From Longimicrobium sp. (GTDB lineage Bacteria > Gemmatimonadota > Gemmatimonadetes > Longimicrobiales > Longimicrobiaceae), in NCBI GenBank assembly GCA_036389795.1, contig DASVWD010000048.1:1-64000 (forward strand): a DNA stretch of 64,000 nt, written 5' to 3'. Made by a program: the position numbers and the translations under genes. The notes under the pieces are model-generated. The model saw only the letters and a program-made list of their open reading frames with translations. It was not told the origin of the DNA and did not search any database. Below are positions 1,866-30,958 of the stretch, one piece after another; positions within the stretch are counted from its first letter, which is position 1; each line of letters begins with the position of its first letter.

Positions 1866-3578
1866 TCAATGACGGTGCTCCTGCGCGGGTGCCTGGCCCC
1901 GCTCCCGCCGCAGCGCGGCCAGGCGGCGCTGGACCTCGGGGTCGCTCCACAGGCGGTGCAGCTCGGGGTCGGCGTGCACGCGGGCCTCGACCGCGGGGTC
2001 GGAGAGGAGGCGGGCGACGAAGTCCACCGCACGCCGCACGTCCGCGGCGGGAGCGGCGCCGTGCCCGGCGTGCGCGCCGCCGCCCATCGCCCGCAGGAGA
2101 CGCTCGCGGTCCGCGGCGGGCATCTGCTCGGCCGCTTCCATCATCAGGCGGTGCAGGCCGCTGTCCGCCATCACACGCTCGCGGATCACCGGATCGGCCA
2201 GCAGGCGCAGGTACGTCTCGCGCATCGCCGACGCCGAATCGCCTTCGATGCCGCCCTTCATCTGCTCGTGCTGATGCGCAGGGGTCTCGGCCGGCCGAGG
2301 CGCGTGCTGGTGCCCTCCCGCCTGTGCCGGCTGCGGCTGAGCGTGCTGGTGCTCCTGAGTCGCCTGTCCGGCCGGCGCGGCGTCGTGGCCGGCGTGGCCG
2401 CCCGCGCCGTGGGCCATTACCGCGCCGCGCGCGACCGTCGGCTGCGGGAAACCGGCCAGGAAGCCCACCACCGGGCCACCCATGTTCTCCACCCCCATCG
2501 CCAGCGCCATCTCCCGCCACTCGTCCACCGTCATCAGGAACGAGGTGTCGTCGCGGTAGCGCGCGGCGGCCCGCAGGATCTCCTCGCGCTTCTTCTCCCG
2601 CGGCACCCGGGGCGAAGTGAGGATGTCGGAGATCACGTCGTGCATCCCGTGCAGGTTGTCGAAGATGATCGCCGCCTCGGGGTAGCGCGCCGCGAAGGTG
2701 GGGGCCACCGCCGCGGTCATCGGCATGATGCGCGGCATGTGCTCGGGCGCGTCCTCCAGCATCTGCCGGAAGCGCGCGACCGCCGCCGTCACGCCCCTCT
2801 GCCGCTCCTCGGGCGTGCGCCCGGTCAGCAGCGGCTCGTAGAGGCCCACCTGCAGCCAGTGGTATCCCCAGATCAGCCCGTTGAACTTCGGATACTTCTC
2901 CCGGAACGCGGTGGCGTAGTACTGCCCCTCCATCAGTTCCATGTTCTTGGGGCGGGAGCTGAAGGCGACGCTGGGCCGCGTCCGGTAGTAGCGCAGCAGG
3001 GCGGCGATCTCGGCGTCCTTCTCCGCCTGCGCGAGCCGCTCGTCGGCCAGCACGTCGTAGACCTGGCGGTGGAGGACGTGCGCCCACTCGAACATCAGCT
3101 TGGCCTCGGGGACGAGCTTGGCGTAGGCGACCTCGATGGCGCCCTCCTCCAGCGGCACGCGCGGCGGGTGGACCAGGAGGCGCCGGGTGATGAAGTCGTA
3201 CTCGCGCTCCTCCAGCCGCTCCGCGGGCGCGTCCGGCCGGCGCCACAGCTCCTCGTAGAGGATGGCGTGGCCGTAGTCGAAGGCGTTGAAGAGCCGGTCC
3301 GCCCCCGGGTAATTGCGCCGGAACACCCAGTTGTGCCCGGCCGGCAGGTAGAACTGCTCGCTCTCCTGCACCCACTGCGCGCCCGCCGGCGCGGCCGTCG
3401 CGGCGAGGGCGACGGCGGCGATCAGGACGGCGAGGGCGCGGCGCCATCTCTCCGTGCGCAGGTGGGGTCGCAGGCGGCTGAAGCCGCGGCTACAACGGCA
3501 GAAAGCCTCGCAAACCCCGCGAGGCTTCAACAGCTTCTGCGGGGAGGCTCCGGAGCCGAATCTCGGCGTCGTCTGCAT
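1866..3578 (-). CDS. His-rich exported protein of unknown family, copper cluster
   Basis: About 570 residues from ATG at 3578, which has a Shine-Dalgarno-like GAAGGA ten bases upstream. The N-terminus is odd. About 35 residues (around LLKPRGVCEAFCR) are encoded by a dispersed palindromic repeat, and only then comes a normal signal sequence (RRALAVLIAAVALAATAAPAGAQ). The middle ~330 residues are a well-structured, unrecognised domain with conserved-looking aromatic and charged stretches. Then follows a His/Gln/Met linker (HQHAQPQ, HQHAPRP, HQHEQMKGG) and two copies of a helical module: RLLADPVIRERVMADSGLHR and RLLSDPAVEARVHADPELHR. The same module ends the next gene. Probably periplasmic; metal handling is inferred from neighbours. 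A later non-ATG start inside the repeat cannot be excluded. Confidence 0.65.
   Translation of the reverse strand: MQTTPRFGSGASPQKLLKPRGVCEAFCRCSRGFSRLRPHLRTERWRRALAVLIAAVALAATAAPAGAQWVQESEQFYLPAGHNWVFRRNYPGADRLFNAFDYGHAILYEELWRRPDAPAERLEEREYDFITRRLLVHPPRVPLEEGAIEVAYAKLVPEAKLMFEWAHVLHRQVYDVLADERLAQAEKDAEIAALLRYYRTRPSVAFSSRPKNMELMEGQYYATAFREKYPKFNGLIWGYHWLQVGLYEPLLTGRTPEERQRGVTAAVARFRQMLEDAPEHMPRIMPMTAAVAPTFAARYPEAAIIFDNLHGMHDVISDILTSPRVPREKKREEILRAAARYRDDTSFLMTVDEWREMALAMGVENMGGPVVGFLAGFPQPTVARGAVMAHGAGGHAGHDAAPAGQATQEHQHAQPQPAQAGGHQHAPRPAETPAHQHEQMKGGIEGDSASAMRETYLRLLADPVIRERVMADSGLHRLMMEAAEQMPAADRERLLRAMGGGAHAGHGAAPAADVRRAVDFVARLLSDPAVEARVHADPELHRLWSDPEVQRRLAALRRERGQAPAQEHRH
3472..3533 (-). 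repeat. Dispersed palindromic repeat (REP-A), copy 1, inside the 5' coding end of a gene
   Basis: Contains the inverted pair AAGCCTCGC / GCGAGGCTT around AAACCCC, plus GGCTGAAGCCGCGGCTACAACGG. The same unit occurs at 17893, 19129 and 20463 on the opposite strand. Here it lies between the ribosome-binding site and the signal peptide of the His-rich gene and is translated in frame. Confidence 0.85.
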
Positions 3579-29269: not shown

Positions 29270-30211
29270 TCACGCGGCGGCCAGGTAGTCGAGGATCGCG
29301 TCGCTCACCGCGTGCCCGCTCGCCCGGTCGAAGGCGGCGAACATGGGGCCGCTGTTGATCTCCAGGAACACCAGCTCGCCGGTGTCGGGGTCGGTCTTGA
29401 AGTCGGCGGCGCCGTACTCCATCGCGAGCCGGCCCATCAGCCGCCCGAGCCCCGCGATCAGCCCCGGGTCGATGCTCTCCAGGTCGCGCGGCTCCACGCG
29501 CGTGGCGTCGTCCGCGCGGTAGTCCAGCCGGTCGCTGATCACGGTGAACGGGAGGAAGCGCCCGCCGATGCCGTAGATGCGCACCTCCGGCACCACCAGC
29601 CGCTGCTGCACGATCGCCGGCGCGGCCGAGCGGCCGTCGCGGCGCGGCGTCTTCGCCAGCAGGTCGCGGATCAGCTGCGTGTAGCCGCCGCCGGCCACCG
29701 GCTTGGCGATCATCTCCGCCGCGCCCTCCACCCGCTCCAGCGCGTCCAGGTGGTTGGTGATCAGCGTGCGGGGGATGCGGAGCCCGCAGGCGGCCGCGGC
29801 GCGGAGCATGAACGGCTTGTTCGTCTGGCCGGCGTAGCCGCGGTTCATCACCCGCACGTCGTCGTGCGCCAGCAGCCATCCCTGGAGCGCCGTGTGCCAC
29901 GCCTGCGCCCGGAAGCCGACGGCCGCGCGCCGGTCGGCCATGGCGTGGAACACGTCGTAGCGCATGAAGCCGGCGGCCGGGCGCACCTCGCGGCCGTCCA
30001 GCACCAGCGTGTCCGCCTGCACGTCCCAGGTGAGCGCGGGCGTCGTCTGGGGCCCGGCCAGCACCGGCAGCACCGGGAGCGCGCGCTCGCGGGCGCGGCG
30101 CAGGAGGGAGAGGAGGTTGGGGTCGGTCTCGCCGCCGGCGACCAGCAGCGGGCGGCGGGTATCGCGAAGCGCGCGCGCGGGGGCGCGGCGCGGGGCCTGG
30201 AGTGTCGGCAT
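29270..30211 (-). CDS. ATP-grasp peptide ligase (graspetide synthetase)
   Basis: A 313-residue ATP-grasp enzyme starting MPTLQAPRRAP. The N-terminal ~100 residues form the pre-ATP-grasp region. After that come VMNRGYAGQTNKPFMLR and CGLRIPRTLITNHLDAL, typical of the MvdC/MvdD/PsnB class. The ATP-binding Lys is in AEMIAKPVAGGG. The Mg-binding acidic residues are in GAADFKTDPDTG and FLEINSGPMFAAFD (Glu and Asn). Graspetide ligases join core Ser/Thr/Lys side chains to Asp/Glu side chains. The gene 94 bases upstream on the same strand encodes a matching substrate with five TTxxxxEE cores. No second ligase, protease or transporter is adjacent. Confidence 0.88.
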   Translation of the reverse strand: MPTLQAPRRAPARALRDTRRPLLVAGGETDPNLLSLLRRARERALPVLPVLAGPQTTPALTWDVQADTLVLDGREVRPAAGFMRYDVFHAMADRRAAVGFRAQAWHTALQGWLLAHDDVRVMNRGYAGQTNKPFMLRAAAACGLRIPRTLITNHLDALERVEGAAEMIAKPVAGGGYTQLIRDLLAKTPRRDGRSAAPAIVQQRLVVPEVRIYGIGGRFLPFTVISDRLDYRADDATRVEPRDLESIDPGLIAGLGRLMGRLAMEYGAADFKTDPDTGELVFLEINSGPMFAAFDRASGHAVSDAILDYLAAA

Positions 30212-30255
30212 GGCTGAGCATCCCTCGAGGGTGGACGGTCTCGGCTCCAGCGAAA

Positions 30256-30285
30256 GCCCCACCCGGCGCGTACGCCGGGTGGGGC
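30256..30285 (-). terminator. Attenuator-like hairpin between graspetide precursor and ligase
   Basis: Perfect 13-bp stem GCCCCACCCGGCG / CGCCGGGTGGGGC followed on the minus strand by TTTCGC. It would end most transcripts after the precursor and let a minority reach the ligase gene. Confidence 0.75.
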
Positions 30286-30305
30286 GGTCCGTCGGTCGCG
30301 GTGGA

Positions 30306-30542
30306 TCAGAACTGCCCGAACGGGTCGACCACGCCGGCCTCGTACTGCCTGGAATCCTCCTCGCCCAGCGACATGGTGGTGGGGTCCTCCTCGCCGATCG
30401 CCTCGGTCGTGGGGTCCTTGTCCTCCTCGCCGAGGGCCAGGGTGGTGTAGCCGCCGTCCTCTTCGCCGAGGGAGAGGGTCGTGGGGTCGGACGACGCCGA
30501 GTAGCGGTCCTCTTCGCCGATCGCCAGGGTCGTGAACGACAT
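30306..30542 (-). CDS. Graspetide precursor with five TTxxxxEE core repeats
   Basis: A 78-residue peptide with a strong ribosome-binding site (AAGGAGA, nine bases before the ATG). It contains five near-identical cores: TTLAIGEED (residues 4-12), TTLSLGEED (21-29), TTLALGEED (33-41), TTEAIGEED (45-53) and TTMSLGEED (55-63). Each fits TTxxxxEE, the consensus of plesiocin (group 2 graspetides), in which two Thr are esterified to two Glu to make a hairpin bicycle. Linkers are only one to eight residues. The first core starts at residue 4, so there is no room for a normal N-terminal leader. The non-repetitive C-terminal tail (SRQYEAGVVDPFGQF) is the only obvious place for enzyme recognition. The ATP-grasp ligase gene follows. 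Confidence 0.88.
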   Translation of the reverse strand: MSFTTLAIGEEDRYSASSDPTTLSLGEEDGGYTTLALGEEDKDPTTEAIGEEDPTTMSLGEEDSRQYEAGVVDPFGQF

Positions 30543-30958
30543 GAGAGTGTCTCCTTGCAGATGTATGCGGTCAGGAGAGGCGGAAGCCTCTCCGCGATGG
30601 GCCGCTTGTCCCCGGCCCCGGGAGCGCTCCGCACCTCGCGGAGGCGCCGGCCTATATGGAAAGCTTTGTTCCAATTCCCGTCCATCGAGCCGCGGCCGGG
30701 AAGATCTCCAAATTCCGGAAAGACGCCAGGCGCACCGAACTCGTGATGCACGAAGATGATGCACGGGCCCGCCCTCCAAGGCGATTTCGCACGCTTGAGA
30801 CCCGGGTTGACAAACAAATGGATCAGGATAGGATGCGTCCGGAGCTGCGGCGCCCGTGCCCCATTGGGGACCTCGCGTCCCAATCGAGGGGCCGCACCTG
30901 GGACGGGAATGGCGCAGTAGCGTCCCGAGCAACGAATCAGGACCGAACAACCTGGGAA
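30543..30958. other. Intergenic region upstream of the graspetide precursor
   Basis: A perfect 8-bp hairpin GGAGAGGC-GGAA-GCCTCTCC lies at 30574-30593 in the presumed 5' leader of the precursor mRNA. A TATAGG (30651-30656, minus) is a possible -10 but has no matching -35. A plus-strand TTGACA-N16-TAGGAT at 30807-30834 points toward dusB. The region is AT-richer than average. A GGGGACCTCGCGTCCC palindrome lies near 30867. No gene seen. Confidence 0.45.

Follow-up and report, generated by a model that had tools for sequence, protein, structure and literature searches.

How a ligase recognizes a precursor that appears to carry no N-terminal leader is the question raised by a two-gene locus in Longimicrobium sp. 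(Gemmatimonadota), found on the minus strand of the 64,000-nucleotide stretch that we analyzed (GCA_036389795.1, contig DASVWD010000048.1, positions 1 to 64,000; hereafter, the window). The initial annotation described a 78-residue graspetide precursor with five tandem TTxxxxEE cores starting at residue 4 and an ATP-grasp ligase following on the same strand, and suggested that recognition might use either the C-terminal tail or the first core. The observation was confirmed, with a small correction (the linkers, DRYSASSDP, DGGY, DKDP and DP, are of 9, 4, 4, and 2 residues, not one to eight, and 16 residues follow the last core). Its interpretation was supported as well and, of its two recognition ideas, the comparative evidence strongly favors the tail.

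A leaderless precursor and its ligase

Features of the graspetide locus, in window coordinates
Feature	Position (strand)	Description
Precursor	30306..30542 (-)	78 aa, five TTxxxxEE cores, no N-terminal leader
Ribosome-binding site	30550..30556 (-)	AAGGAGA, 7 nt before the ATG
Core 1	30510..30533 (-)	TTLAIGEE, residues 4-11
Core 2	30459..30482 (-)	TTLSLGEE, residues 21-28
Core 3	30423..30446 (-)	TTLALGEE, residues 33-40
Core 4	30387..30410 (-)	TTEAIGEE, residues 45-52
Core 5	30357..30380 (-)	TTMSLGEE, residues 55-62
C-terminal tail	30309..30356 (-)	DSRQYEAGVVDPFGQF, residues 63-78, proposed follower
End motif	30309..30326 (-)	DPFGQF, conserved ([N]PFGx[F/Y] in relatives), proposed ligase recognition sequence
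Hairpin	30256..30285 (-)	13-bp perfect hairpin between precursor stop and ligase start, likely attenuator or mRNA processing/stability element
Ligase	29270..30211 (-)	Graspetide-type ATP-grasp ligase, 313 aa, closest solved relative PsnB

The precursor opens with MSF, directly followed by the first core, and family searches with it (Pfam, NCBIfam, PDB) gave nothing. Ninety-four bases separate it from the ligase, and the hairpin in this gap (-47.9 kcal/mol for the gap, z -2.95) has counterparts at most related loci, where strong hairpins of different sequence follow the precursor stop. This fits a device that keeps precursor mRNA above ligase mRNA, although this is an inference.

The best solved relatives of the ligase are PsnB, CdnC, AMdnB, MdnB/MdnC, and PruB, and the ATP-grasp residues are conserved in 30 relatives. 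PsnB, the plesiocin synthetase, is the closest by single sequence, by profile (E 3e-30), and by the fold of the AlphaFold model (pLDDT 88; Foldseek E 5e-17), with a whole-chain TM of only about 0.47, probably because of domain orientation. In a phylogenetic tree the family stands apart from the microviridin-type ligases with full support, whereas PsnB sits on a very long branch whose place is unsure. An apparent stop inside the second ligase of the genome does not indicate a pseudogene, since it is only the precursor stop, with precursor and ligase in one frame. No ligase was found on plasmids.

The reading frame upstream of the ATG stays open for 296 codons, so length alone does not exclude an earlier start. 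However, GC at third codon positions (GC3) is 0.95 in the precursor and 0.98 in the ligase, against 0.51-0.60 in the in-frame upstream sequence, and we consider the start well fixed. Homologs with a conserved upstream leader in frame had been named in advance as the finding that would overturn the leaderless reading, and none appeared among the Gemmatimonadota. In 16 precursors from related Gemmatimonadota genomes, every start has a ribosome-binding site, 2 to 8 residues precede the first core, and the N-termini share no motif. Seven of them (L004c, L005b, L007, L013a, L013b, L085, and L091; L numbers denote loci, and letters precursors within them) have no ATG, GTG, or TTG between the preceding in-frame stop and the start, with only 5 codons of room in L091, 7 in L007, 19 in L005b, and 20 in L013b. 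A 17th precursor, with 12 to 13 cores, is encoded in the window's own genome (L117:2655-3536, plus strand, at the end of contig C133, which cuts off whatever follows). It is also leaderless, with a GC3 of 0.95 after MPGKKTPI and 0.67-0.71 before it.

Conservation of the C-terminal tail

An alignment of homologous precursors had been proposed beforehand to test whether the tail is conserved, and it is. All 17 Gemmatimonadota precursors end in [P/A][F/L]Gx[F/Y]. In the 16 compared by position, the last residue is F in 16/16, followed inwards by G at -3 (16/16), F at -4 (15/16), P at -5 (14/16), and N at -6 (13/16), these being the only conserved positions outside the cores; shuffled precursors end that way at a rate of 6e-5. 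The 17th ends in NPFGHY. The distance from the last core to the end is nearly constant, mostly 15 to 19 residues. Considering that at least ten of these precursors were found by their cores alone and all have the tail, the tail was not selected for. The architecture, found beside or apart from homologous ligases, is far beyond chance. Short precursors of 36 to 40 aa with one or two cores were found at L002, L005, L007, and L013 (third precursor), several with Lys in place of the first Thr and Cys inside the cores (e.g., KTLACGED...TTARGCEE), for which a lactam and possibly a disulfide between the cores are predicted.

The reverse search was also made. The DNA pattern for NPFGxF-stop gave 10 hits in 22 genomes of relatives (about 102 Mb) and none with the reversed pattern; all 10 are precursors with graspetide-type cores in genomes that carry the ligase. 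Three of them (L085, L091, and L092) are multicore orphans with no ligase within the 1.2 to 1.5 kb examined on either side, so they would have to be modified in trans. L091 and L092 share a neighboring gene that looks like an N-acetylglucosamine/BadF-type kinase.

Outside the phylum, a scan of genome contigs with the single ligase sequence found nothing, but a profile of the ligases found 33 named loci. Two are Gemmatimonadota contigs already seen, and the rest belong to Cyanobacteria (Moorena, Symploca, Okeania, Oscillatoria, Trichodesmium, and Crocosphaera), Acidobacteriota, Verrucomicrobiota, Aquabacterium, Alphaproteobacteria, and Bacteroidota, with ligase identities of 33 to 49%. Precursors lie directly upstream, and 23 of 26 carry the PFGx[F/Y/R]-type tail (SPFGRY, GPFGWY, NPFGSF, GPFGAF, GPFGAY, SALGSF, GAFGSF, NPFGRR, GPFGER, and similar), although about ten of the cyanobacterial ones are close relatives, so the number of independent cases is smaller. 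In Crocosphaera watsonii (L028), a transposase-like gene abuts and appears to truncate the precursor. The three precursors without the tail are from Bacteroidota, two of them with a GG-type N-terminal leader-like stretch; leader-like N-termini were seen in some distant relatives of this phylum (L024 and L027).

The N-termini of these precursors differ completely, being a shared 110-residue domain in Cyanobacteria, Verrucomicrobiota, and Alphaproteobacteria (L025, L029-L038, and L043-L052), a short VTGA-type stretch in Aquabacterium, and other short N-termini, or nothing, elsewhere. The model of the 110-residue domain from cyanobacterial and alphaproteobacterial precursors is a confident all-beta one, without a significant match in the PDB, and its fold is unknown. 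Cores and tail are thus the only shared parts.

The tail is not required by the whole ligase family. Two paralogous ligases (L014 and L015, about 50% identity) lie directly downstream of a vanadium bromoperoxidase gene (L097, ORF ending at 3518, plus strand, and L098:3404-5347, minus strand, respectively; E 6.6e-98 to PDB 1qhb, homology to about residue 549 of 647), whose last 90 to 100 residues hold about six TTxxxxEE-like repeats without PFG, possibly a graspetide-modified enzyme tail. Only one alignment column, residue 199 in the numbering of ligase sequence P0002, separates ligases of tail-bearing precursors (A/V in 32) from tail-less ones (F, F, S, M, and T in 5). It is a possible part of the tail-binding site, but only a lead, not corrected for relatedness.

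Proposed recognition through a C-terminal follower

The best explanation, in which we have fairly high confidence, is a plesiocin-type cluster whose ligase recognizes its substrate through a C-terminal follower ending in PFGx(F/Y). In this view, the leader groove of the ligase binds the tail, and the enzyme activates the Glu side chains of each core with ATP and joins them to the two Thr, probably distributively as reported for PsnB (PMC5934393), giving up to ten ester links and a chain of five bicycles. The gene pair, the absence of a leader, the conservation of the tail, and the ligase family rest on the sequences analyzed here. On the other hand, that the tail binds the ligase, that esters form, and that the product is a multivalent protease inhibitor released or exported by unknown host factors are inferences, since dehydration, cross-links, binding, and dependence of activity on the tail were not measured, and precursor and ligase were not modeled together. 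Experiments on the fuscimiditide ligase ThfB support this view, since its leader works when moved to the C-terminus (at about half the rate) and truncations point to RPFG as the likely recognition tetrapeptide (PMC13003496), while a survey of 2,174 precursors found Phhx(1,2)h to be the general leader motif (PMC8939145). The natural tail carries the same PFG. However, Aquabacterium precursors have both the VTG(A)-type stretch and the tail, and a conserved tail could also serve stability, export, or proteolysis.

The alternative that survives best, although unlikely, is that the ligase reads the cores themselves (the first or any core), while the tail docks to an exporter or a maturation protease or protects the peptide from degradation. 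The cores are highly repetitive, PsnB is reported to work distributively on repeats (PMC5934393), ThfB has weak affinity for its core alone, and the haloperoxidase-fused cores and the Bacteroidota precursors lack the tail. Against it, ThfB did not modify a core without its leader (PMC13003496), no transporter or protease gene is shared by the loci (an EamA-like transporter gene lies convergent to the ligase at L100, L103, and L104 but is absent from the window locus), the tail carries the PFG of a known leader recognition sequence, and precursors with one or two divergent cores (L002, L005b, and L007) keep the tail. A leader supplied in trans, or a partner protein presenting the precursor, is very unlikely; partner-dependent graspetides such as rosaritide exist (PMC13097080), but there is no third conserved gene at the loci, and the three orphan precursors keep the same tail. 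A hidden leader from another in-frame start, favored only by the open upstream frame, is rejected by GC3 (also for the long precursor of the same genome), the ribosome-binding sites, and the seven relatives without any possible upstream start.

It is about as likely as not that a whole clade of graspetide synthetases spread over several phyla reads its substrates from the C-terminus, freeing the N-terminus so that cores can be strung in any number, left orphan and modified in trans, or fused behind folded domains, and that one branch may cross-link the C-terminal tail of a full-size vanadium bromoperoxidase. All graspetide precursors in the papers that we read are guided by an N-terminal leader and none of these papers mentions a natural C-terminal motif, although some central papers were not covered and an earlier mention cannot be excluded. 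Since a large mining study used motifs in the N-terminal 30 residues to call precursors (PMC8939145), this family could be missed or mis-scored. A natural follower with the short motif PFGxF would be a compact, portable tag for putting cross-linked cores on the end of any protein, and would show that leader position in this enzyme family is evolutionarily switchable.

Comparison with known graspetide systems

The best family match of the ligase in NCBIfam is TIGR04187 (GRASP_SAV_5884 ATP-grasp peptide maturases; E 2e-23), but its 83 bits are far below the curated cutoff of 350, so it is not a member by that test. The locus has the graspetide-type ligase and the adjacent precursor with conserved donor (Thr/Ser/Lys) and acceptor (Glu/Asp) residues of the graspetides, a pattern also found in the 17 Gemmatimonadota precursors, but not the N-terminal leader with which the class is usually described, which is typical of the class but not its chemical definition. 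It does have the conserved C-terminal PFGx[F/Y/R] tail in the absence of a conserved N-terminus by which we propose to define follower-directed graspetides (17/17 in Gemmatimonadota, 23/26 elsewhere). Microviridin (MdnA/MdnB/MdnC) shares the ATP-grasp macrocyclase family and a P-h-h-x-h type motif (PFFARFL) that guides the enzyme, but has an N-terminal helical leader, a different core, and two ligases, while the ligases studied here form a separate clade.

With plesiocin (graspetide group 2) the locus shares the tandem TTxxxxEE cores and a single PsnB-like ligase, at only about 23 to 26% identity to PsnB; the plesiocin precursor was not compared. Known precursors of the class have N-terminal leaders, and here there is none and the conserved motif is at the C-terminus. 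Fuscimiditide (ThfA/ThfB) with its repositioned leader (PMC13003496) offers C-terminal recognition of a graspetide precursor and PFG within its likely recognition tetrapeptide, although its natural leader is N-terminal, its core topology is nested, and an aspartimide is added. There the arrangement was engineered, in 2026, while the one proposed here is natural, with the motif at the very end, and nature seems already to use it.
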